Part shown: positions 3,586 to 16,613 of the stretch, piece after piece | Layout of the letters: every line of letters begins with the position of its first letter | How positions within the stretch are numbered: position 1 is the first letter of the stretch | Source: Mesorhizobium sp. YC-39 | GTDB lineage: Bacteria > Pseudomonadota > Alphaproteobacteria > Rhizobiales > Rhizobiaceae | Assembly: GCF_025753795.1 (NCBI RefSeq) | Contig: NZ_JAOWPS010000001.1 | Location: 1,798,001-1,862,000, forward strand | Length of the DNA stretch: 64,000 nt | Direction of reading: 5' to 3' | The notes under the pieces: generated by a model | Seen by the model: only the letters and a program-made list of their open reading frames with translations | What the model was told of the DNA's origin: nothing | Database searches by the model: none | Position numbers and translations under genes: made by a program

Positions 3586-3747
3586 GAAAACCGGTCCGCG
3601 TCCGGCTGAATTCCGAAGCCGTGACCTGAAAACCGCACTGCCGGCTTTGTCGCGTAAGTGATCCATATGTGACTGCCTTCCACACTGCACGTGCGGGAGG
3701 CAGCAGATGCGCAACATTGCACGCTCGAAAAAGCCGGGTGACGTCGC

Positions 3748-4383
3748 ATGACAGCCGACGCCCTGTTGTCGCCGGCGATGGTCTCCGGCTTCGTGTTCGG
3801 CCTCGGGCTGATCTTTTCCCTCGGGCCTCAGAACCTCATGCTTATCCAGGCCGGATTGACGCGCAGCCATCCTTTCGCGGTCGCTTCCACCGGCTACGTC
3901 TCGGAGATCGCCCTCGTGAGCATGGGAATTGGCGGGTTTGGAACGTTGCTGACGCACAATCCCGCAATCTCAGGCATGCTGCAGGCGGCATGCGCCGGAT
4001 TTCTCGCCTGGTGGGGCGCGCGCACCTTGCGCGCGGTCAACCGGACATCCGGCATGGAGATTGCCGCAGCAGGCCGCAAGTCGCGATACCAAGCGATCGG
4101 CTCGATGCTTGCCGCCACCTGGCTCAATCCGCTGGTCTGGCTCGAGGCGATGTTTCTCGTCGGCGTGCTTTCGTTCAGCTACGGCAGTGGGGAACAGGCG
4201 GGTTTCGCCGGCGGATTCCTCGCCGCTTCCGCAATCAAGTTCTATGGCTGGAGCCTGGCCGGGTTGAGCCTGTCCCGCCGCTTCGACCGCCCGATCCATC
4301 GCAAGCGGATGGACATCGTCGCGGGCCTTGTTCTGATCCTCGCTGCGCTTGTCTTGGCTGCAAACATTCTGAAAGGCGTTTGA
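3748..4383 (+). CDS. LysE/ArgO-family amino acid exporter
   Basis: A 211-residue inner-membrane protein with about six hydrophobic segments. It carries the LysE hallmark FSLGPQNLMLIQAGLTR near residues 24-40 and a second conserved patch, ATWLNPLVWLEAMFLVG (about 123-139). The family exports basic amino acids such as lysine or arginine, or related small molecules. No LysG/ArgP-type LysR activator, the usual divergent partner, is next to it. The gene converges on the large regulator to its right with a 57-base gap. The exact substrate cannot be read from the sequence. Confidence 0.88.
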   Translation: MTADALLSPAMVSGFVFGLGLIFSLGPQNLMLIQAGLTRSHPFAVASTGYVSEIALVSMGIGGFGTLLTHNPAISGMLQAACAGFLAWWGARTLRAVNRTSGMEIAAAGRKSRYQAIGSMLAATWLNPLVWLEAMFLVGVLSFSYGSGEQAGFAGGFLAASAIKFYGWSLAGLSLSRRFDRPIHRKRMDIVAGLVLILAALVLAANILKGV

Positions 4384-4440
4384 GTGATCGCCGGGCTCAC
4401 GAGGACCCGGAGTTTCGCGCGACCGCGCTGGGAATTTTCG

Positions 4441-7400
4441 TCAGCGCGTCTGCCGCGCGAGATGCGGATCGACCAGAGCGCGTATTTCGGCCGCGGGCCC
4501 GCCTTCGCCAGCGGCACGCAATGCCCGCTCGTAGCGTGCATAGTCGTCGACCGCGCCTTCGAAATCACGGCGCGACAGCCGCTCCTTGATCAGCGCCTTG
4601 AAGAGCGGACCGGCATCCGGATAAAAATCCAATGCTCTGAGATAGACGGAACGCGCTTGATCGGCGTTGCCGGCCGCCTCCAGCCGCTGGCCGATCCGCA
4701 AGCCGAGATCGATCAGGTCGCGACGCACTTTTTCGGAAGCGGCGAGCGACCAGGAATTGGCTCGCTCGTGCAGAAACAATGCGCCGGGGAATGCGAGGAA
4801 GAGTGCCTCCGCGTCGGGGCGCAGTCCGACTGTCCCGCCATTGGCCGTCGCCACTGCTTTGAGCCGTGCATCCCACGCGGCGAGGTCGACCCAGACCTTG
4901 TCCGATGCGAGGCGAAGCCTGCCTTCGCGCTGGGCGATGAGGTCGGTGCGCCCCAGCAGCTTGCGCAGCCGGTGCAGCGCTTGCTCGCACGCCGCCCGCG
5001 CCTGATCGCCGTCAAGATCCGGCCACAACCAGTCCTGCAGGGTTTCCAGCGAACAGGTGTTGTCTTTCGCGATCGCCAGCACCCGCAATATGTCGAGCGC
5101 CTTGGTCGGTGGCTTGGCGCCGAGAGGCAGAGGTTCGCCGTCGAGTTCGAGCCGGAAGCCGCCGAGACCATGGACCTTGAGCGGCCAGGGCCAGGCTGCG
5201 GGCCGCCGCTGCGGCACGTTCAGCCGGCGTTCGCGGATCAGCGATCGGCAGAGCTCCGGTTCGATGCCGCGCTCGAGCGCATCGCCAAGCAATTCGCCGA
5301 GCAGCTCCGGAACGTTGAGCAGCACCATCGGCCAGGAGATTTCGCGCAGCGCCTCCAGGAAGGCCTTCAGCCGGTCGCCATAATGTGGATCGTCGCCCCA
5401 CAAACTTTCCAGCGCCTCGGCCGCCAGGATGCATATCTCGCTCCGCTTGTGGGCGCCGCCGTCCAGCTTGGGCAACAGCTCGCCGAGAAGCGTGGCGGCT
5501 TCGCGCGGCTTCCTGTCGGCGAGCAGCACCTGGAACTTCGTGATGTAATGCGGCCAGCGCTCGACCATGGGCTCGTTGGCGGCCTCGATCGCCGCCATGA
5601 AGCGCTCGCAATCCTGATAGGCGGCTGTGAAATCGCCTTGCCTTGCATGCAGCGCGGCGTGGCAATCGGCGACGACGGCCACCTGCGTGGTGAAGCGGCT
5701 GTCGCCGATCTCGGCCAATCGTGCGACCACCTGGTGGAACTCGGCAAAATCGTTGCGGACCTTCATCTGCATCTGGAGATGGTAGAGCCCACCGAACTCC
5801 ACGCTCCTGAGCGACTCACGCTCGCCAATGGCGATCGCCGCCCGCAACGCCGCTTCGGACGACGGATAGGGAAAATTCCTTCTTTTGTAGGGGAAGTAAC
5901 GGCCACTCTCCGCGCCAAAGGCGACCAGCCACATGCCGAGAATCCAGGGCAGCGCGTCCTTGTTGCTCAAATCGTCGATGACGCTGTCGACGGCCTTGGC
6001 GAACAGATCGGCGCGCATGGTCGACGCCGAAAGATCGATCAGCGTTTCGCTCGCCAGCAACCGCAATCCGCTCGGATCCTGCCTGGCATTCCTGGTCAAC
6101 CGTTCAAGCAGTTCGGTTTCCAGCTTTTGTCCGGCCGGGCTGCTGCGATAGTAATCCTCGGCGAAGTTCAGCGCACGCATCATGCCGATGCGTACCAGCA
6201 TCGCTTCCTCGGCAGGCAGTTCCGGCAGGCCGCGTTGGATCAGCTCGAATGCCCGGCGGGTCCATACGGAAAGGCCTTCGTAGGTGCGCCAGCTGGCCGT
6301 CTTGACCAGGACGGCGCGCGACACTGTAAGACACAGGCCGCGCGGATCGTCGGCCTCGCCAAAGGCCTGCCATGCCTTCGCCAGCCAGCGCTCCGCCGCG
6401 ACGTCGTCCGGCACATGGGCCACGCCCAGCCAATAGAAATGCCAGCCGTTCATCAGCGCTTCCGGCAATCGGCCGCACCAGTCGATGAAAGTCGCCCGGC
6501 CGCCTTGCGCCAGCACAGCCTCCGCGCGGCTCAATATGAGTTTGCCGGCAAGCCCCCAGTCCTCGGCCTGCAAGGCAAGCGGTATGGCTTCATCCAGACG
6601 GCCTGCCTGGATGAGGATCGTCGCCGCCTTTCGTTTCAGCAACCTCTGCTCTTCCCATGGCACGCGCTCAGCGAAACACCGGTCGAGGAAATCCCGCAAC
6701 AGGTCGTGCAGGTAGAAGACGTCACGGCTGCTTTCCGTGCGCGTGACGAGCAACTGACGCCTGTAGAGTCGCTCAAGCAACTTTCCCGCCTCGCCCGATC
6801 CGATCATCTCGTCGGCCAGCCCGGCGCTGATTTCGGGCAGCAGGTTGAGCTTCAGGAGCATGTCCTGGTCGGCGGCGGGGAGGGAAAGGAAGAAGTGGCG
6901 GCCAAGAACATCCAACAGTGCGTTCTGCGCGCCTGGGACGTTCGCGTCATCAGGTCCGACCGTCGAGCCGTGATCGGCGAGCAGGACCAGTCCGATTGCC
7001 CAGCCGCGCGCGGCTTCGACATCGACCGAGACGTTCTTTGAACGCAGTTGGACGAGATCGCGCGCTTCCGCGGTCGAGAATTCAAGCGCCGACCTGTCGA
7101 CGACGGCCATCTGGCCTCTGAGGACGAGGTCGCCCAGTTCCTCCCGTGGCAGCGTTCGCGAGGCGCAGATGCACCGAACCGTGTCCGGAAGCTCCCGGAA
7201 CATCACCGAAAGCACCCCACGAAACTCCGGCGTATCGGCATCGTGCAGATCGTCGAGGACCAGAACGGTGCCGGGTTTCAGCCGCGCGAAATAGGCCCTG
7301 AAGAAGCGCCTGGCGAACTCCTTTGGCTGCTCGGCATATTCGACGCCGAACACCGGCATGTCTGTGGCCGAGTTGAGGGATTGAGCCAGATACTGAAAGA

Positions 7401-7671
7401 AGCGCGCAATGTCCTGGTCGCCCTCGTCGACACGGAACCACACATGCGGCGCCTCGACGCTTTCGAGATAGTCGATGACCGCGGTCGTCTTGCCGTAGCC
7501 CGCTGGCGCCGCTATCCAGCACACGCTCGATCGCGACCTCCGGTCGATCGCTTCGAGAACACGGTTGCGTCTCAGTATCCTGGCGCTGCGCGGCGCTGCC
7601 AGTTTGGCGATCCGGCCCGTGGCCGGGAGCAGGCGCCTCGCATCGGCTTCGATGGCGTCTAGGGGGGTCAT
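4441..7671 (-). CDS. large MalT-like ATPase transcriptional regulator with BTAD-type C terminus
   Basis: A 1076-residue signal-transduction ATPase. The N-terminal P-loop APAGYGKTT is at residues 55-63 and a Walker B-like GTVLVLDDLHD at about 134-144, as in MalT/LuxR-family STAND ATPases. A long helical, TPR-like middle follows (about 350-800). The C-terminal quarter holds a winged-helix segment (LGGFRLELDGEPL...KALDILRVLA) followed by a BTAD-like helical domain (EQALHRLRKLLG onward), the SARP/AfsR arrangement, rather than the LuxR HTH of MalT. I chose ATG 7671 over the longer frame because GGGAG lies 5 bases upstream. No dedicated target is adjacent. The ligand and regulon are unknown. Confidence 0.82.
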   Translation of the reverse strand: MTPLDAIEADARRLLPATGRIAKLAAPRSARILRRNRVLEAIDRRSRSSVCWIAAPAGYGKTTAVIDYLESVEAPHVWFRVDEGDQDIARFFQYLAQSLNSATDMPVFGVEYAEQPKEFARRFFRAYFARLKPGTVLVLDDLHDADTPEFRGVLSVMFRELPDTVRCICASRTLPREELGDLVLRGQMAVVDRSALEFSTAEARDLVQLRSKNVSVDVEAARGWAIGLVLLADHGSTVGPDDANVPGAQNALLDVLGRHFFLSLPAADQDMLLKLNLLPEISAGLADEMIGSGEAGKLLERLYRRQLLVTRTESSRDVFYLHDLLRDFLDRCFAERVPWEEQRLLKRKAATILIQAGRLDEAIPLALQAEDWGLAGKLILSRAEAVLAQGGRATFIDWCGRLPEALMNGWHFYWLGVAHVPDDVAAERWLAKAWQAFGEADDPRGLCLTVSRAVLVKTASWRTYEGLSVWTRRAFELIQRGLPELPAEEAMLVRIGMMRALNFAEDYYRSSPAGQKLETELLERLTRNARQDPSGLRLLASETLIDLSASTMRADLFAKAVDSVIDDLSNKDALPWILGMWLVAFGAESGRYFPYKRRNFPYPSSEAALRAAIAIGERESLRSVEFGGLYHLQMQMKVRNDFAEFHQVVARLAEIGDSRFTTQVAVVADCHAALHARQGDFTAAYQDCERFMAAIEAANEPMVERWPHYITKFQVLLADRKPREAATLLGELLPKLDGGAHKRSEICILAAEALESLWGDDPHYGDRLKAFLEALREISWPMVLLNVPELLGELLGDALERGIEPELCRSLIRERRLNVPQRRPAAWPWPLKVHGLGGFRLELDGEPLPLGAKPPTKALDILRVLAIAKDNTCSLETLQDWLWPDLDGDQARAACEQALHRLRKLLGRTDLIAQREGRLRLASDKVWVDLAAWDARLKAVATANGGTVGLRPDAEALFLAFPGALFLHERANSWSLAASEKVRRDLIDLGLRIGQRLEAAGNADQARSVYLRALDFYPDAGPLFKALIKERLSRRDFEGAVDDYARYERALRAAGEGGPAAEIRALVDPHLARQTR

Positions 7672-7841
7672 CGGGGCTCCCGTTCGACCAATCCTCGGAC
7701 GCCGGTCGTGCCGCCAGGACCGTTCCGCCGCCCACATCTTTCCCCAGCGTAACGCAATCATGCGACAATTCTAGTGGCTTTGCAGGGTGAAGCGGCATGG
7801 CCGATCCGACGCACGGACCTCAATGTCCACGCAGCCGCGAA

Positions 7842-8549
7842 TCAGGATGCGGATGGCGCCGGGTTGCGTGAGGCGGCGGGCGACCGGTGGATCCCGCATT
7901 CCAGCTTCGGCAATCCGCTCCAGCGGCCCACGCGCGGGTTGTCCGCGCTGCCGCCCGCGACCGTGCAGGGCGCGCAACCGATCGAGAAGTAGCCTTTTTC
8001 GAGCAGCGAATGCCGGGGCAGGCGATGGTGATCGAAATAGGCCTCGATCTCAGGGCGCGTGAAGCGGGCGAGCGGGTCGATCTTCAAGCGCCCGTCATCT
8101 TCCTCAAGCGTCGACACATCCGTGCGCAGCCCGCCATGATATCGCTTGCGGCCGGAAATCCAGGCCTTGAACCCGGCCAGGGCTCCTTCGAGCGGCAGAA
8201 CCTTGCGGATGTGGCAGCACCGGTCCGGATTGCGGGAGTGCAGCGATCCCGCAGCGTCCAACGCCCGCAAGGCATCCGCGTTGGGCGTCACCACGCGCAC
8301 ATCGGTCAGGCCGAGCAGCGTTATCAGTTGCGCGCGATAGGCGATCGTCTCGGCAAACAGCTTTCCCGTGTCGAGCGTGATGACGGGAAGCGAACGATCG
8401 ATCGAAGCGGCCATATGCAGCAGCACCGCCGATTCCGCGCCGAACGAGGAGACGAGCGCGATATTTCCGCAAAACAGCCCGGTGACTAGTGGCGCCAGCA
8501 GGTCAGCCCCGTCGAGATCATCCAGCTCTGCGATGACGGCCTCATACAT
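7842..8549 (-). CDS. cysH: adenylyl-/phosphoadenylyl-sulfate reductase (CysH family)
   Basis: A 235-residue cytoplasmic reductase that converts activated sulfate (APS or PAPS) to sulfite. The PP-loop nucleotide-binding region is SSFGAESAVLLHM. The family signature CCHIRKVLPL (Cys 111-112), CAPC (192, 195) and the catalytic ECGIH (Cys 218) are all present. The two Cys pairs are the [4Fe-4S] ligands of APS-type reductases, so APS is the likelier substrate. The start is uncertain: ATG 8549 is used, and a TTG at 8570 is also in frame. It lies just after the YeiH-DHOR fusion on the same strand, which is not the usual cysHDN context and suggests a link to sulfite or sulfate handling there. Confidence 0.85.
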   Translation of the reverse strand: MYEAVIAELDDLDGADLLAPLVTGLFCGNIALVSSFGAESAVLLHMAASIDRSLPVITLDTGKLFAETIAYRAQLITLLGLTDVRVVTPNADALRALDAAGSLHSRNPDRCCHIRKVLPLEGALAGFKAWISGRKRYHGGLRTDVSTLEEDDGRLKIDPLARFTRPEIEAYFDHHRLPRHSLLEKGYFSIGCAPCTVAGGSADNPRVGRWSGLPKLECGIHRSPAASRNPAPSAS

Positions 8550-8588
8550 GGCGGTTCGGCCGATCAGCAACAGCGGGAGGCAGCCGAT

Positions 8589-10019
8589 TCATAGCTTTGC
8601 CACGAAATCGAGGATCGCCTGCCGGTCGGCGTCGCCAAGGTCGAAGAAGCGGTCGCGCACGATCCGCGCAGTCCCGCCATGGGCGAGAACCGCGTCACGC
8701 AGCGTGGTGGCGCGGCCGTCATGCAGATAGCGTTCGCGAAGGTGTATGCCGACGAGTGGTGCGGTTCGCCATTCGGCGCCGATGGCGTCGCCCTGGACGA
8801 TCTTGTCGTCGAGCGCCGGCCCCATGTCGTGCAGCAGCAGGTCCGAGTAGAGCCGGACCTCGCCCTTGACGCCCTCCAGCGCCGGCACATGGCATTTGGC
8901 GCAACCGGTCGAGGCGAAGAGCCTTCCGCCCTGGCTGCCAAGCATCGCGCCTTCGCTCGACGAAGGCGCTGCGGCCTGGAAGGCCGCCGAGAAGGGCATC
9001 AGCGCACCATAGGCCAGCGCTGCCGACAGAACCACCCCGACAAAACCGACACCAATCAGACGCCAGGCGCCGCCGGCCTCCCCGAGCCGCCCGATGCGTG
9101 TGGTGATCCCAAGCGCGACCATCACCATCAGGAACAGGAACTGGTCGACGTCGAGGATCGCGCGGCGCAGTTGCGGATCGAGGGTGATCGCGGAATTGAT
9201 GAGCACGACGCCAACGAACGCGGCGATGAACCACGGGAACGGGATTGGCGCCGCCTCCTGTCCCTTGTTTCGGCCGCGAAGGACCAGGCCGGCGGCGAGC
9301 AGCAGCGGGATGAGCATCAGCACCTTGCTGAGCTTGACCAGCGTGGCGGTGTTCAGCGCCCCGTCCGAGATGGCGAAGGAGGCGCCGTAGACCTGCGCCA
9401 GCTCGAAGATGCTCGCTCCGACGAACACGCCATAGAGGCGGTCGTCGAGATGCGGCAGCCAACCACCCAGGAATAGGACGGGATAGACGAGCAATGCCAC
9501 CGTGCCGCTCAGCGTGATCAAGGCGATGGCGATGCCGGCGCTCTGGTCGCGCGCGCGCACCAGCGCGGCCATGGAAAGGATCGCCGCGGCGCCGCAGACG
9601 GCGCTGCCGGTAGCGACAAGCAGCGCGACCTCGGCGTCGAGCCTGAACAGCTTGCGCGCGACGGCGTAGAGCAGGCTCAGGACCAGGACCAGCTCGATGG
9701 CTGCCACCGCGAGCGGCATGAACCCGAGATCCAGGAACAGCCGCGTGGTGATGCGGAAGCCGACCAGCACCACGGCGAACCGCAACAGATAGCGCTTGGT
9801 GAAGTCGAGCCCCGGGCGCAAGGCGTCCGGACAGGCGAAACTGTTGCCGATCAGGAGGCCGAAGAGCATGGCGACGAGCACCGGATTGCGCGACAGTGGC
9901 TCGCCAAGTCCACCGGCGATCCAGCCGGCCGCAAGGGCGAGCGCGGCGGCAATGATGATGCCCGGCAAGACCGGGCGCGCTTTTCCCGGCGCATCCGAGA
10001 GCGTCAGGGCGAAGCTCAT
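8589..10019 (-). CDS. YeiH-family transporter fused to the C-terminal haem half of a DHOR/DUF1111 oxidoreductase
   Basis: A 476-residue chimera. Residues about 18-345 form a polytopic membrane domain of the YeiH/UPF0324 family (putative sulfate exporter), with typical stretches such as NPVLVAMLFGLLIGN, ATGSAVCGAAAI and FVGASIFELAQVYGASF. Residues about 360-476 are periplasmic cytochrome sequence. A haem site CAKCH (373-377) is followed by LYSDLLLHDMGP, GAEWRTAPL and RYLHDGRATTLRDAVLAHGG, the classic C-terminal half of di-haem oxidoreductases (DHOR, DUF1111). The N-terminal haem half is in the upstream gene, overlapping by ATGA. A strong ribosome site (GGGGAGG) precedes ATG 10019. The job is unknown; an electron-transfer-coupled step on a sulfur oxyanion is inferred. 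Confidence 0.85.
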   Translation of the reverse strand: MSFALTLSDAPGKARPVLPGIIIAAALALAAGWIAGGLGEPLSRNPVLVAMLFGLLIGNSFACPDALRPGLDFTKRYLLRFAVVLVGFRITTRLFLDLGFMPLAVAAIELVLVLSLLYAVARKLFRLDAEVALLVATGSAVCGAAAILSMAALVRARDQSAGIAIALITLSGTVALLVYPVLFLGGWLPHLDDRLYGVFVGASIFELAQVYGASFAISDGALNTATLVKLSKVLMLIPLLLAAGLVLRGRNKGQEAAPIPFPWFIAAFVGVVLINSAITLDPQLRRAILDVDQFLFLMVMVALGITTRIGRLGEAGGAWRLIGVGFVGVVLSAALAYGALMPFSAAFQAAAPSSSEGAMLGSQGGRLFASTGCAKCHVPALEGVKGEVRLYSDLLLHDMGPALDDKIVQGDAIGAEWRTAPLVGIHLRERYLHDGRATTLRDAVLAHGGTARIVRDRFFDLGDADRQAILDFVAKL

Positions 10020-12157
10020 GGCTTGGCCTCCCCGGGCAGGCCGAGCATTCGCAGATAGGAAGCCACCGCGTCGATCTGCGCGGCATCCTGCTCGACCGGC
10101 TGCGCCTGCGCCCCGAGGCCGGTGGCGATCGCGCTGGTGACGCCGAGTTCCCTGGCGAAAGCATCCGCCACCATCTCTTCGAGGTTGGCGATATCAGCCT
10201 TCCAGCCGTAGCGGCCGACCCGCGATGCCCCGTTGGCGTCGACGACATGATGCGCACGGCCCTTGATGCCATCGCCCTTGCTCACCGCCTGTGCCTCGAT
10301 GACGCTGTCGGGGATCTCGTCGATCCTGGCGATACCGTAGAGAGCGGGCGGCATGCGCAGCGAGATCACATTGGCCTGGCGCGGCATCGCCGCCGGCACG
10401 GCCGAGTTGCCGTCGACCAGCGCATAGCGCCTGGCGACCGGGCTGTTGGGATGATCGATCGCAGCCGTGCGCCCGGACCCCGGATCCATATGGGCTATCC
10501 GGCGCGCAAAATGGCTTTCATCGATGCTCGCGCCGCCAGGCCCGGGATGGCAGGCCAGGCAGGACGTTGCGTTGAACCACGGACCGAGACCCGTCTGCGG
10601 GGTGAAATCGGTCTGGAACAGCTGTTTGCCGCGCGCCGCGAGATCGGCGTCGGCTGTTGCGCTTTGCGTCTGTTGCGTCGTCACCGATGCGCCGTGCTCG
10701 TCGAAGGTGGGGATCTCGATGAGCGCGCCGTCGCGACCCGGAAATCCGGGAAGCTTGCCGCCTATTGTTATCCAGATCCGCTGTGCGTCCGCCGAGGTCG
10801 CGATCGCGCGGAGGCGATCGGGTCCCAGAGGCCCGAGGCCGGGAATCTCGATCGTCGCCCGGGCGAGAAGCCGGCCGTCCTGGCTGAGCCGCAGCAGCGA
10901 GCCGTCGCCGCGATTGGCGACGAAGAGATCGGAGCCGCCGGCGAGCGTCGTGTGGCTCGAGAATTGCGGATTGGCGATTTCGGGAATGGCCGGGGCGATG
11001 TCGACCGGACGGTCGAATTGCGGCAGCGCGATCGTACGGGTCCGGGCGACCGTGAAATGCCGCCGGTCGTCATCGAGGTCGAGCAGCACCAGCCGGTCGC
11101 GCCCGGGGTCGGCGACATAGAGGACCCGGTCCGGATTCCACTTGAAGGCGACGCCGATGACGCCGGGATCGTCGCCGATGCCCCGGCCGGTGCTTACCGT
11201 GCCGGGGCCGGCCAGGCCGTCGACGCCGTCCTGGACATGGATCTGGACCACGCCGCCATCAGCCGTGACGGCGGCGAACACGGCAAAGCCGCTGCCGTCC
11301 GGTGACGGACCGAGAAACGCGGTTCCGAGCGCGCCGGTCTGCAATCCGCCTGATGTCAGCTGGCCACTCGTCCGGTAGTTCATGAGCTTGGCGAGCCAGC
11401 CGCTGGGTTGTGCTTTCGGCGTGCGCTCACGATCGGTAAGCCGGCCAAAGAACACGCCGCCGGCCTCGCGGCTCGGCGCGTTGGCAAGCGGGGCTCCGTC
11501 TGGATCGACAACGCTGACGCTGCCTTCGCCATCCATCCCGTTCGGCGCGTTCGCGATCCAGGGCCTGCCGAAGGCATTGTTGATGGAAATGTATCGCGGC
11601 CCGGATGCAGCTGCGAAAAGGGCTGTTCGGGCGCCGCTATTGTAATGCCTGTTGAGAAATGGTTCGCTCTGCGCGGTATAGAGCTGGACCCGGCTGTCCC
11701 GGTTGCCGGTGAGGTCTTCCGGAACGACGATGGTGCTGTCCGGTACGGCCCCCCGCGGATCGATGGACAGGATCGCGCCGACCTCAAGTGCTGGATCGCC
11801 TGGCGGTGCGCCGAAATTGCTGCCCACGGCCACCAGAACCCTGAGCGGATCGAGCTCCCGCCCTTCGCGCGTCGCCATAAGGAATTCTGGATTTCCCGGT
11901 ATAGGTCCGCCGACATGAAAGCGCCCCACCTCGCGCACGCCGGCCACATCCGGCAGCCCGACAGCGACGATGCGGGCGCTCAGGCGCCAACCGGGGGTCC
12001 GCTCTCCAGCGAGCCCCGGGGTCGGCAGCAGGCTGAGAAATATCGCCGTTGCCCTCAGCATGTTCCAGCGAGCAGAAAAACCCGACAGCACGGACCATCG
12101 CCGGGGCTGATGAGTTCCGACGAAATCAGTTCGGGCCACTGCACGGTCTTTTCGCAT
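10016..12157 (-). CDS. secreted protein with N-terminal haem half of a DHOR/DUF1111 di-haem oxidoreductase
   Basis: A 713-residue exported protein. A signal peptide (MLRATAIFLSLLPTPGLA) lies about 33 residues in. Next is a domain of about 450 residues rich in blade-like repeats (VLVAVGSNFG, RVLYVADPGRDRLVLLD, SDLFVANRGDGSLLRL), probably a beta-propeller. The final 200 residues hold one haem site CLACH (533-537) followed by RMPPALYGIARIDEIPD and GRYGWKADIANLEEMVADAF, hallmarks of the first half of DHOR proteins. It stops at ASYLRMLGLPG, exactly where normal family members continue into the second haem. ATG 12157 has GGAGG 6 bases upstream; ATG 12061, right at the signal peptide, is the alternative start. 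Confidence 0.82.
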   Translation of the reverse strand: MRKDRAVARTDFVGTHQPRRWSVLSGFSARWNMLRATAIFLSLLPTPGLAGERTPGWRLSARIVAVGLPDVAGVREVGRFHVGGPIPGNPEFLMATREGRELDPLRVLVAVGSNFGAPPGDPALEVGAILSIDPRGAVPDSTIVVPEDLTGNRDSRVQLYTAQSEPFLNRHYNSGARTALFAAASGPRYISINNAFGRPWIANAPNGMDGEGSVSVVDPDGAPLANAPSREAGGVFFGRLTDRERTPKAQPSGWLAKLMNYRTSGQLTSGGLQTGALGTAFLGPSPDGSGFAVFAAVTADGGVVQIHVQDGVDGLAGPGTVSTGRGIGDDPGVIGVAFKWNPDRVLYVADPGRDRLVLLDLDDDRRHFTVARTRTIALPQFDRPVDIAPAIPEIANPQFSSHTTLAGGSDLFVANRGDGSLLRLSQDGRLLARATIEIPGLGPLGPDRLRAIATSADAQRIWITIGGKLPGFPGRDGALIEIPTFDEHGASVTTQQTQSATADADLAARGKQLFQTDFTPQTGLGPWFNATSCLACHPGPGGASIDESHFARRIAHMDPGSGRTAAIDHPNSPVARRYALVDGNSAVPAAMPRQANVISLRMPPALYGIARIDEIPDSVIEAQAVSKGDGIKGRAHHVVDANGASRVGRYGWKADIANLEEMVADAFARELGVTSAIATGLGAQAQPVEQDAAQIDAVASYLRMLGLPGEAKP

Positions 12158-12502: not shown

Positions 12503-12600
12503 CCCTGCACGGGTTTGCTGGCGCGAACCTCTCCCGGATGCGCGCTCGTGAACCCCAACAAAAGTCCGGACGCATCCGGATCGCGAACAGGGGTACGCAA
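12494..12600 (+). promoter_or_regulatory. riboswitch expression platform with mutually exclusive helices
   Basis: The aptamer's 3' strand CCGGGAGA (12494-12501) can pair perfectly with TCTCCCGG (12530-12537). Bases 12534-12542 (CCGGATGCG) can instead pair with CGCATCCGG (12571-12579). The two helices share 12534-12537, so they exclude each other. A small AACCC/GGGTT hairpin lies at 12501-12515. The ribosome site AGGGG (12589-12593) can be covered by ACCCC (12552-12556). No T run follows, so control of translation is more likely than termination. Which state exposes the ribosome site is inferred: ligand-bound should be ON. Confidence 0.6.
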
Positions 12601-13665
12601 ATGCTTCGTAAGCTGGCCGCAATCATCCTAGCCGCATCACTCAGCCTTCCCACGATTTCCGCCGCCGACGCGGCGCCCAAGAAAGACTTCAAGATATGCT
12701 GGTCGATCTATGTCGGCTGGATGCCGTGGGGCTATCTTTCCGACAGCGGCATCATGAAGAAATGGGCCGAAAAATACGGCATCAATGTCGAGATCACCCG
12801 CATCAACGACTATGTCGAAAGCATCAACCAGTACACCGCCGGCGGCTTTGACGGCTGCTCGATGACCAACATGGATGCGCTGTCGATCCCCGCTGGCGGC
12901 GGCGTCGATACCACCGCCGTGATCATCGGCGACTTCTCCAACGGCAACGATGCCGTGATCCTCAAGGACAAGGCCGCACTGGCCGACATTGCCGGCCAGA
13001 AGGTCAATCTCGTCGAGCTCTCCGTCTCGCACTACCTGCTGGCGCGGGCGCTGGACACGGTCAAGCTCGCCGAGAAGGACATCACCGTCGTCAACACGTC
13101 CGACGCCGACATGGTCGCCGCCTATGGCACCAGCGACGTCACCTCCGTCGTCACCTGGAATCCGCTGGTTTCCGAGATCGTCGCCATGCCGGGTGCGCAC
13201 AAGGTTTTCGATTCCTCGCAGATTCCCGGCGAGATCATCGACATGATGGTCGTCAACACCGAGACGCTGAAGGACAATCCTGCGCTGGGCAAGGCGCTTG
13301 TCGGCGCGTGGTACGAAGCGATGGACCTGATGACCTCGGACACGCCGGAAGGCAAGGCAGCCAAGGAAGAGATGGCCAAGGCGTCCGGCACGGACCTCGC
13401 CGGCTTCGACGCGCAGCTCGCCTCGACAGCGATGTTCTTCGATCCCGCCAAGGCGGTCGAGTTCACCATCGGCACAGAATTGCCGAAGACGATGGATCTT
13501 GTCCGCAACTTCCTGTTCAGCCACGGCATCCTCGGCACCAATGCGGTGAGTGTCGACGTGGTCGGCATGAGCTTTCCCGACGGTTCCACGCTGGGCGACG
13601 CCAAGAACGTCAAGCTGCGTTTCGATCCAGCCTTCATGGCCGAGGCTGCAACCGCAACGCCCTGA
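12601..13665 (+). CDS. periplasmic substrate-binding protein of the guanidine-riboswitch ABC importer
   Basis: A 354-residue exported solute-binding protein with a signal peptide (MLRKLAAIILAASLSLPTISAADA). The body is of the NitT/TauT/SsuA-like fold (CWSIYVGWMPWGYLSDSGIMKKWAEKYGI, then GGFDGCSMTNMDALSIPAGGGVDT). It belongs to the group usually labelled putative urea ABC transporter binding protein (TIGR03427 type), which often sits beside urea carboxylase or ykkC riboswitches. With this riboswitch upstream and a guanidinase in the operon, guanidine is the best-supported ligand. ATG 12601 has AGGGG 7 bases upstream; an in-frame ATG at 12538 lies inside the riboswitch platform and is rejected. 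Confidence 0.9.
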   Translation: MLRKLAAIILAASLSLPTISAADAAPKKDFKICWSIYVGWMPWGYLSDSGIMKKWAEKYGINVEITRINDYVESINQYTAGGFDGCSMTNMDALSIPAGGGVDTTAVIIGDFSNGNDAVILKDKAALADIAGQKVNLVELSVSHYLLARALDTVKLAEKDITVVNTSDADMVAAYGTSDVTSVVTWNPLVSEIVAMPGAHKVFDSSQIPGEIIDMMVVNTETLKDNPALGKALVGAWYEAMDLMTSDTPEGKAAKEEMAKASGTDLAGFDAQLASTAMFFDPAKAVEFTIGTELPKTMDLVRNFLFSHGILGTNAVSVDVVGMSFPDGSTLGDAKNVKLRFDPAFMAEAATATP

Positions 13666-13677
13666 CGCAGGCGCGAT

Positions 13678-14586
13678 ATGCTGGTCGAGGGAATGAGCGC
13701 CATGAATGCAGTCTCCGAGGCGGACGGGGAGGGCACGCGCCCTTCCCCGCCAAGGCCGAAGGTGCGCCTTCGCCTGATCAATGCGAAGGTCTCGCGCGGC
13801 GGCGCCTTGTTCCTCGGCGGCCTGCCGTTCCTGTTCGTGGCGATCGCCTATCTGATCGCTTCGGCGCAAAGATTGGCGGTCAATCCCAGCGACAAACTGC
13901 TGCCTTCGCCGGCACAGATGTGGTCGGCCTTCCTTGACCTGGCGACGGTGCCGGATAAGCGTTCCGGCGACCTCATCCTGTGGGTCGATACCTATGCCAG
14001 TCTTGTCAGGCTGTTCGCGGGCGTGGGCGTGGCTACGTTCGTCGCGCTTTCGCTTGGCATCGCCATCGGCTTCATCCCACGGGTGCGGGCCTTCCTGCTG
14101 CCTTTCGTCACCGTCGTCTGCGTCATCCCACCACTGGCGCTGCTGCCGATCCTGTTCATCGCGCTTGGCCTTGGCGAAACAGCCAAGATCACGCTGATCG
14201 CCATCGGCGTCGCGCCGGTGATGGTGCGCGACATCGCCAACCGGGTGATGGAGTTGCCGACCGAACTGGTGGCCAAGGCGCAAACGCTTGGCGGCAACAG
14301 CTGGACCATGGTTTTGCGGCTGGTGCTGCCGCAGGTCATGCCGCGCCTCATCACCTGCGTGCGGCTGGCGCTCGGACCGGCCTGGTTGTTCCTGATCGCC
14401 GCCGAAGCCATCGCCTCGACCGAAGGACTGGGCTACCGCATCTTCCTCGTCCGCCGCTATTTGTCGATGGACGTCATCCTGCCCTACGTCGCCTGGATCA
14501 CACTGCTTGCCGTCATCACCGACTGGCTGCTGGTGCGGCTTTCCCAGGCGGTTTCGCCTTGGGCGCATCCGGTGGAGGCCAAATGA
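13678..14586 (+). CDS. ABC transporter permease (guanidine importer)
   Basis: A 302-residue inner-membrane permease of the BPD_transp_1 family, TauC/SsuC-like. It has about six membrane segments and the EAA loop that docks the ATPase (ELVAKAQTLGGNSWTMVLRLVLPQ, about residues 196-219). The N-terminal 45 residues are polar. The true start may be ATG 13702 (MNAVSEAD), which has GAGGG 10 bases upstream, rather than 13678. It follows the binding protein by 12 bases and overlaps the ATPase by ATGA, so the three form one importer. Confidence 0.9.
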   Translation: MLVEGMSAMNAVSEADGEGTRPSPPRPKVRLRLINAKVSRGGALFLGGLPFLFVAIAYLIASAQRLAVNPSDKLLPSPAQMWSAFLDLATVPDKRSGDLILWVDTYASLVRLFAGVGVATFVALSLGIAIGFIPRVRAFLLPFVTVVCVIPPLALLPILFIALGLGETAKITLIAIGVAPVMVRDIANRVMELPTELVAKAQTLGGNSWTMVLRLVLPQVMPRLITCVRLALGPAWLFLIAAEAIASTEGLGYRIFLVRRYLSMDVILPYVAWITLLAVITDWLLVRLSQAVSPWAHPVEAK

Positions 14587-15404
14587 GCCGCATCGTCGTT
14601 CACGGGTTGGAAAAAAGCTACGGCGATGCCCGTGTGCTCGAGCGGGTCAACGTCACCGCCGAGGCCGGCGAATTCCTGTCGCTGGTCGGCGCCAGCGGCT
14701 GCGGAAAATCGACGTTCCTGCGCATCCTGCTCGGCCAGGAGCAGCAGAGCGGCGGTGTGGTTGTCATCGGCGACGGCCCGATCGTGCCCGAGCCGACGCC
14801 GCAGCGCGGCATCGTCTTTCAGCGCTATTCGGTGTTTCCGCATCTGACCGCCATCCAGAACCTGCTGCTGGTCGAGGACTTTCGCTCGGGCGGGCCGTTT
14901 GGCCGCGTCTTCGGCGCCAGGCGCAGAAACGCCAGGCAAGAGGCCGAAGTCATGCTGGAGAGGGTTGGCCTTGCCCATGCGCGCGACCTCTATCCCGCCT
15001 CGCTCTCGGGCGGCATGCAGCAGCGGCTGGCGATTGCGCAGACCTTGCTCGGCCGGCCGCAGATACTGCTTCTCGACGAGCCGTTCGGTGCGCTCGATCC
15101 CGGCATTCGCGTCGAGATGCACGAACTGCTGACCGAGCTCTGGACCGAGCACGGCATGACGGTGGTGATGGTCACCCACGACATCGGCGAGGCCTTCAAG
15201 CTCGGCACCCGCGTGCTGGTCTTCGACAAGGTGCGCCACGACCCGCAGTTCCCGTCCGCCTATGGCGCGACGATTACCTACGATCTGAAGCTCGACCGCA
15301 AGAACCGGGCTTCTTCCCAGGAAGTGGCCAAGGTGGCCGCGATGGTCGGGACGGCCCGGCCGGATAGCGCGATCGCGACGACGGCGTCGCAACGGAGAGT
15401 TTGA
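14583..15404 (+). CDS. ABC transporter ATP-binding protein (guanidine importer)
   Basis: A 273-residue cytoplasmic ATPase powering the importer. It has Walker A GASGCGKST (about 38-46), Q-loop VFQRYSVFPHLT, signature LSGGMQQR, Walker B ILLLDEPFGALD and the switch histidine in VTHDIGEA. This is the SsuB/TauB/NrtD subgroup, apart from an extended C-terminal tail of about 50 residues (TYDLKLDRKNRASSQEV onward). It overlaps the permease stop by four bases, and its own TGA is immediately followed by the hydrolase ATG. Confidence 0.92.
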   Translation: MSRIVVHGLEKSYGDARVLERVNVTAEAGEFLSLVGASGCGKSTFLRILLGQEQQSGGVVVIGDGPIVPEPTPQRGIVFQRYSVFPHLTAIQNLLLVEDFRSGGPFGRVFGARRRNARQEAEVMLERVGLAHARDLYPASLSGGMQQRLAIAQTLLGRPQILLLDEPFGALDPGIRVEMHELLTELWTEHGMTVVMVTHDIGEAFKLGTRVLVFDKVRHDPQFPSAYGATITYDLKLDRKNRASSQEVAKVAAMVGTARPDSAIATTASQRRV

Positions 15405-16613
15405 ATGTCCAGAAATATCCCCGAACGCAGCCACCGCCGGGCAGGGCTCGTCGCCCGGGAGGCCAGGGAACGCTTCCACCACCCGGATTTCGACGCCCGC
15501 GGCACGCAGGGCTGGAAGTCGATCGAGGCCGAAGGAAAGCTGCCGGAAAGCGGCTGGCGCAAGGAGCAGCAATGGGCGCTCGACATGGGCCTGCCGGGAT
15601 CGGAGTCGATCGTCGACAAGTCGATCCCGACATTCGCACGCGGGGAGTTGCCGCATTTCGCCGGCATCAACACCTTTCTCAAGGCGCCCTATGTCGAGAA
15701 CGTCCGCGATGTCGGCAAATATGATGCCGCCGTCATGGGCATCCCTTTCGACAGCGGCACTACCTACCGGCCGGGAACCCGCTTCGGGCCGCAAGGCATT
15801 CGCCGCATCTCGGCGCTCTACACGCCGTACAACTACGAGCTCGGCGTCGACCTGCGCGAGCAGATGACGCTGTGCGACGCCGGCGACGTCTTCACCATTC
15901 CCGCCAACCTCGAAAAGAGCTTCGACCAGATCACCAAGGGCGTCAGCCATGTCGCCTCGTCGGGCGCGCTGCCGATCATGCTGGGCGGCGACCATTCGAT
16001 AGGCTTTCCTTGCGTGCGCGGCATCGCCGAGGTGACCTCCAAGCGCATCGGCATCATCCATTTCGACCGCCATATAGATATCCAGGAAAAGGATCTCGAC
16101 GAGCGCATGCACACCACGCCCTGGTATTGGGCGACCAACCTGCCGAATGTCTCGGCGACCAATCTCGTGCAGCTCGGCATCGGCGGCTGGCAGGTTCCCC
16201 GCTACGGCGTCGCCGAGGCGAGGAAGCGCGGCACCAACGTGCTGACCATTGCCGACATCGAGCAGATGGGTCTCGAGAAGGCGGCGGAAATCGCGCTCGA
16301 ACTCGCATGGAAAGACACCGACGCCGTCTATATCTCCTTCGACGTCGACAGCCTCGATTGCGGTTTCGTGCCCGGCACGGGCTGGCCGGAGCCGGGCGGG
16401 TTCCTGCCGCGCGAGGCGCTCAAGCTGCTTGGACTGGTGACGGCACCCGGCATTTGCGGACTGGAGGTGGTCGAGGTTTCGCCGCCCTACGACACGTCGG
16501 ACATCACGGCGCTGTTCGGCGTGCGGGTCGTCGTCGAGGCGCTCGGCTCGATGGTCGCCCACGGCAATCTCGGCAAGCACAAATCCATCATCGACAAGCC
16601 GGTGAGTTTTTGA
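15405..16613 (+). CDS. gdmH: nickel-dependent guanidine hydrolase (GdmH-like ureohydrolase)
   Basis: A 402-residue cytoplasmic ureohydrolase that should split guanidine into urea and ammonia. Metal ligands of the arginase/agmatinase fold are visible: H197 in GGDHS, D221/H223/D225 in HFDRHID, and D313/D315 in SFDVDSLD. The arginine in HFDRHID, where arginases and agmatinases have HxDAHxD, and the long N-terminal extension (about 100 residues) mark the cyanobacterial GdmH type. So do the blocks DERMHTTPW, QLGIGGWQVPR and VPGTGWPEPGG. The guanidine-I riboswitch and nickel genes in the same operon support this over agmatinase. A GGAGAG ribosome site precedes the start, which abuts the ATPase stop. 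Confidence 0.9.
   Translation: MSRNIPERSHRRAGLVAREARERFHHPDFDARGTQGWKSIEAEGKLPESGWRKEQQWALDMGLPGSESIVDKSIPTFARGELPHFAGINTFLKAPYVENVRDVGKYDAAVMGIPFDSGTTYRPGTRFGPQGIRRISALYTPYNYELGVDLREQMTLCDAGDVFTIPANLEKSFDQITKGVSHVASSGALPIMLGGDHSIGFPCVRGIAEVTSKRIGIIHFDRHIDIQEKDLDERMHTTPWYWATNLPNVSATNLVQLGIGGWQVPRYGVAEARKRGTNVLTIADIEQMGLEKAAEIALELAWKDTDAVYISFDVDSLDCGFVPGTGWPEPGGFLPREALKLLGLVTAPGICGLEVVEVSPPYDTSDITALFGVRVVVEALGSMVAHGNLGKHKSIIDKPVSF

Follow-up and report, generated by a model that had tools for sequence, protein, structure and literature searches.

Why does a di-haem oxidoreductase (DHOR) domain stop at the end of one gene and resume in the next, behind a membrane transporter domain? Two genes of Mesorhizobium sp. 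YC-39, here called A and B, raise this question. They lie in a 64,000-nucleotide stretch (the window; C1:1798001-1862000 of the 7.36 Mb genome, G000). Gene A (10016..12157, minus strand) encodes 713 residues with a signal-like N-terminus, then a predicted propeller and then the N-terminal part of a DHOR domain, and gene B (8589..10019, minus strand) encodes 476 residues with a YeiH domain followed by the C-terminal DHOR part. The stop of A and the start of B overlap in the bases ATGA (10016..10019, minus strand); a preliminary description of the sequence had given both this overlap and the gene coordinates correctly. Both domain families are already known, and the conserved split-and-fused pairing appears to be new. 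No paper on this split or on a YeiH-DHOR fusion was found in the open-licence literature searched, in agreement with the earlier statement that no such architecture had been described.

The DHOR domain is divided between its two haem domains. A profile built from 18 single-chain DHORs (one from this genome and 17 from other members of its bacterial family) is covered at positions 121-139 and 238-327 by A and at 386-512 by B, so that the matches are ordered and complementary, with zero overlap. Among intact relatives, the closest one found belongs to locus L058, a short single-chain DHOR (421 residues as trimmed) whose residues 69-295 align with the tail of A, down to its final residue, and whose residues 302-421 align with the tail of B at 48% identity. 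Judged from these alignments, the break is a single point in a linker of about six residues between the two haem domains. Residues typical of DHORs are retained on both sides of it, GWK in A and HDMG, WRT, LHDGRA and HGG in B. Like single-chain DHOR/DUF1111 proteins (PF06537), A and B together have both haem domains, their order and the key motifs, but in two proteins instead of one chain, with the propeller before the first half and YeiH before the second.

The haem part of A spans residues 504-713 (10019..10648, minus strand), as delimited by the intact-DHOR profile and the L058 alignment. It contains haem-binding motif 1, CLACH (A 533-537; 10547..10561, minus strand), whose C, C and H columns are invariant in alignment A2, as well as GRYGWKADIANLEEM and a GRYGWK motif (A 648-653; 10199..10216, minus strand) retained from intact DHORs. 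A had been described as ending with the first DHOR haem half, and the motifs and profile matches bear this out. Against PF06537 itself A gives a weak match of 20.9 bits, slightly below the cut-off of 22 and best over the stretch 58-85, and an NCBIfam scan of A returned no family. Residues 52-491 (10685..12004, minus strand) are predicted by fold comparison to form a six-bladed propeller of the DFPase / Drp35 / SMP-30 type (14-20% identity), which backs the propeller proposed earlier. A shares this predicted fold with the SMP-30/DFPase/Drp35 propellers, but its propeller is fused to a haem part. The true start of A is probably near residue 33, upstream of the signal-like stretch, and the relative P0122 begins at about that point.

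B carries a nearly complete YeiH domain, matching PF03601 (Pfam) over residues 19-316 (9072..9965, minus strand; profile 1-297 of 304, E 1e-65, 222.1 bits against a gathering threshold of 24.5). In this it is like the YeiH/PSE family (PF03601, TIGR00698), but stand-alone YeiHs have nothing beyond the membrane domain (mostly frames of 340-400 residues), whereas B adds a haem tail. This tail spans residues 363-476 (8592..8933, minus strand) by PF06537 and the intact-DHOR profile, the PF06537 (DHOR, Pfam) match covering residues 364-475 and profile positions 366-498 of 499 at 70.6 bits (cut-off 22). It holds haem-binding motif 2, CAKCH (B 373-377; 8889..8903, minus strand), with C373, C376 and H377 invariant in alignment A1, and the motifs LLLHDMGP, EWRTAPL and RYLHDGR. 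The second half thus does lie behind a YeiH domain, as had been proposed.

The same division is found in relatives. From three protein searches, which yielded 1341, 655 and 220 proteins, the top 120 of each were examined, giving 120 B-type proteins and 172 A-type proteins (120 and 52 new, own protein included). Among those listed, exactly one CxxCH is present in 119 of the 120 B-type proteins and in 168 of the 172 A-type proteins; four A-type proteins have none, as does the B-type P0081, whose tail reads as a frame change. No protein of either type (0/172 and 0/120) has two, which is what a complete di-haem domain in each protein would call for. These counts and the intact-DHOR profile matches rule out a full domain in each protein. 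At the level of sequence, neither A nor B contains a whole DHOR domain, and the DHOR is there only as a pair. PF03601 and PF06537 both match 33 of 33 B rows scanned with Pfam; of the 34 A rows, 19 match PF06537 with an E-value of 1e-3 or lower. The listed relatives carry the names Mesorhizobium, Rhizobium sp. 007, Roseateles, Rhodoferax, Caldimonas, Nostoc sp. FACHB-892 and an Ardenticatenaceae metagenome-assembled genome (MAG); in the last two, A alone was seen among the matches listed. The conservation seen in the listed proteins, 172 of A type and 120 of B type, excludes a chance origin.

A and B also travel together. Among the loci compared, the ten closest named ones belong to Mesorhizobium. 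Both genes are present in 15 of 16 loci, and A lies immediately before B in all 15; the overlap is four bases, [AG]TGA, in 13 of these and 8 or 11 bases in L016. The remaining locus, L015, starts inside B. In L005 (G240, a MAG) A and B form one frame of 1237 residues (3724-7431), following a frame change close to where A ends, and this may be a natural fusion or an assembly error. Seen in that one MAG alone, a fused single chain is rejected as the usual form. Among 146 Mesorhizobium genomes (own included), A is found in 13 (E up to 1e-30) and B in the same 13 (E up to 1e-100), and the two are adjacent by coordinates in 13/13, G248 having A broken across two contigs. On contigs of at least 3.5 kb there are 82 B-type matches, and 31 of them have an A-type match on a contig of exactly equal size, compared with a mean of 0.5 and a maximum of 3 in an offset control. 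Across these 31 pairs the distance correlations between the parts of the two proteins are 0.52-0.84, and no permutation out of 500 gave a correlation as high as any of the six.

In the genomes sampled from the phylum and from the family of Ideonella the pair is sparse, and much of the evidence is metagenomic. In a sample of 151 genomes of the family, full-length A and B were seen in the own genome only, among the matches listed; in the other genomes the DHOR-type frames mostly measure about 500-690 residues and the YeiH-type frames mostly about 340-400 residues. An intact DHOR and a separate YeiH do therefore exist in family genomes, but as different proteins from A and B. In 398 genomes of the phylum sample, A was found nowhere but in its own genome. 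The propeller-bearing A is absent from 349 genomes of Ideonella's family, where only the short single-chain DHOR of L058 was seen. The frames beside that DHOR (L058 1153-2565, G825) look like sensor kinases, by eye. Spread on plasmids was considered and rejected, since in a tblastn search with B no plasmid record out of 232 found reached 80% coverage of B.

The gene directly after B suggests what the pair may act on. It is a cysH-type gene (7842..8570, minus strand; PF01507, PRK02090), probably on the same transcript, and another CysH-type protein is encoded elsewhere in the genome, at C2, so that the copy beside B is a paralogue. It begins 12-27 bases past B in 10 of 10 Mesorhizobium loci, and the own copy and 9 of the 10 loci carry CC, CxxC and ECG[IL]H motifs. 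CysH-type reductases produce sulfite in the cytoplasm. Stand-alone YeiHs have been tied to the same compound: passages of PMC12880088 describe Salmonella YeiH as the main sulfite-resistance factor, and Hyphomicrobium YeiH is called a sulfite exporter in an excerpt of PMC12423496. Sulfite is proposed here because of these reports and the linked cysH paralogue in Mesorhizobium.

Attachment of haem c requires the CxxCH motif to be periplasmic. If the CxxCH of B is to gain its haem, the tail of B must therefore be periplasmic, which agrees with the published topology of YeiH. The C-terminus of the Salmonella protein is predicted to be periplasmic (PMC12880088, in part), PF03601 has been modelled with 9 (or 11) helices and the N-terminus inside (portion of PMC8396727), and a YeiH model is published (from an extract of PMC4602095). 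The complementary halves of one di-haem domain in A and B may rejoin on the periplasmic face of YeiH and there oxidise exported sulfite, a reading to which we give somewhat less than an even chance as a whole. A would be exported, given its signal-like N-terminus as read from the sequence, and would dock on B. Each half would hold one c-type haem, and the di-haem unit would be completed at the mouth of the YeiH domain. The YeiH domain would still transport, its cargo being sulfite made in the cytoplasm by the cysH-type reductase; the di-haem unit would oxidise this sulfite and pass the electrons via its two haems to a periplasmic cytochrome c, with the propeller as a face binding substrate or partner. 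The separate parts differ in strength. Reassembly into a membrane-anchored di-haem enzyme is probable, whereas sulfite as both cargo and substrate is a tentative choice and likelier to be wrong than right.

Reassembly had also been the interpretation of the preliminary description, in which the halves meet in the periplasm and anchor a propeller-bearing enzyme on a transporter. It stands in part: the break between the haem domains, the complementary halves, the tail after the YeiH domain and the co-travelling of A and B all agree with it, and the rejoining itself stays at the strength given above. A further possibility, which we regard as doubtful, is a redox-gated exporter, in which the active site would be shared by the propeller protein and the YeiH mouth, the enzyme would exist only on docking, export and oxidation of a sulfur oxyanion would be one coupled step, and docking or the haem redox state would control the gate. 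If reassembly is true, the pair would be a haem enzyme assembled on the mouth of a transporter and acting on what the transporter carries, and also an enzyme domain that stays split at a domain boundary where a membrane protein is inserted. In the passages of the literature consulted, biochemical function is settled for neither the DHOR family nor YeiH; the conserved division of one DHOR domain over two proteins, one periplasmic and the other a YeiH-type membrane protein, links both families and offers a testable substrate. A different tether for A may be present in the A-type protein P0278 (1099 residues), which matches PF01145 (band 7) and whose N-terminus, before the propeller, is membrane-like.

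Several observations weigh against the proposal that A and B rejoin on a working sulfite transporter. The match of B to TIGR00698 (NCBIfam) is 162.8 bits, below the cut-off of 232.6, and its YeiH part keeps 49 of 112 columns that are invariant in stand-alone YeiHs, a comparison of six rows in which L023 and L055 are one gene. Near-invariant columns of intact DHORs are kept at 32/114 in the N half and 38/74 in the C half, and three Trp that are invariant in the C half of intact DHORs are missing in B. The two haem halves have the lowest of the six distance correlations, 0.52 vs 0.65-0.84 for the others. The genome of L015 gave no A match. No cysH is seen beside B in L011-L016, of which L012, L013 and L015 hold at least 4 kb after B, and L011, L014 and L016 have too short a sequence after B to judge. 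In the model of A, most 10-residue blocks from 520 on (the DHOR part, modelled alone) have a pLDDT (predicted local distance difference test) score of 29-55, and the model of B is unusable, too poor for fold assignment, its Foldseek matches being meaningless; single-protein structure models neither support nor oppose the assembly. We know of no sulfite-oxidising di-haem protein; TsdA, reportedly a di-haem enzyme, is said to act on thiosulfate.

The pair could instead be a membrane-tethered di-haem peroxidase, as proposed for single-chain DHORs, with YeiH carrying another solute or mainly serving as an anchor and sulfite not involved. PF06537 is named 'putative peroxidase', DUF1111 proteins are termed di-haem peroxidases in passages of PMC3143127, and the tail of B weakly matches di-haem peroxidases and MauG (E-values no lower than 0.037). 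MauG and the di-haem cytochrome c peroxidases share the two-haem layout with A and B, but they are single-chain and soluble, and CCP_MauG does not appear among the Pfam hits of either A or B down to an E-value limit of 1. The pair is also seen without a sulfur gene as neighbour outside Mesorhizobium. The cysH paralogue at 10 of 10 Mesorhizobium loci speaks against this explanation, as do conserved YeiH core stretches of B such as G-x-x-x-C-G-A and E-x-A-Q-V, and we consider it unlikely, though not negligible.

PuuD offers another comparison. According to sections of PMC4562309, a transporter-like membrane domain is followed in it by a periplasmic cytochrome c at the C-terminus, an arrangement like that of B, and the protein works as an oxidase rather than a transporter. 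The membrane domain of B could likewise be part of a catalytic unit, with the haem parts merely carrying off electrons, and the fact that over half of the columns that are constant in stand-alone YeiHs have changed in B would fit such a role. Yet PuuD belongs to another membrane family and is mono-haem without a partner half; DUF989 does not appear among the Pfam hits of B down to an E-value limit of 1, and A and B have two complementary di-haem halves and a propeller where PuuD has one cytochrome. This makes a PuuD-like role for B improbable.

There is a slender chance that the halves never rejoin, A and B being separate mono-haem proteins of one operon whose DHOR origin is mere history. The single CxxCH in each protein, the distance correlation between the haem halves, the weakest of the six, and the many intact-DHOR residues lost from the N half would all follow from it, but DHOR-specific residues are retained in both A and B, and the constant pairing of overlapping genes also speaks for rejoining. 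A recent gene break or assembly error, of which L003 and P0081 could be taken as single-locus examples, is contradicted by the survey and extremely improbable, because the identical split recurs across relatives and genera, in every listed relative with both motif regions and in 13/13 Mesorhizobium genomes.

A large protein, possibly a regulator, is encoded at 4441..7761 (minus strand; weak AAA matches, PF13191 at 30.3 bits, below cut-off). All 10 Mesorhizobium loci have it further downstream, and in L005 it lies some 3.9 kb past cysH. In L010 8260-11568 (Mesorhizobium sp. STM 4661) the large protein past cysH is split into two frames. In L003 3797-8124 (Mesorhizobium mediterraneum USDA 3392) a premature stop interrupts A and the end of cysH is altered while B is open, and this operon may be decaying. 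The genes diverging from A (12538-16613, plus strand) encode a urea-type ATP-binding cassette transporter (TIGR03427, binding-protein-dependent permease) and an arginase-family protein; they are absent near A in the other Mesorhizobium loci, which hold up to about 3.9 kb ahead of A (L007 none).

DHOR-imelysin (Efe-like) sets, as outlined in part of PMC3143127, resemble A and B in placing a DHOR with periplasmic partner proteins, but the DHOR is intact there and split in A and B, and no imelysin is present among the scanned neighbours of the pair. The own genome has an intact DHOR of 535 residues followed by an imelysin gene (PF09375; L018 283-2969, C1 near 1,048,000), about 0.76 Mb from the A-B pair, and this arrangement resembles the DUF1111-imelysin sets of the same partial source.

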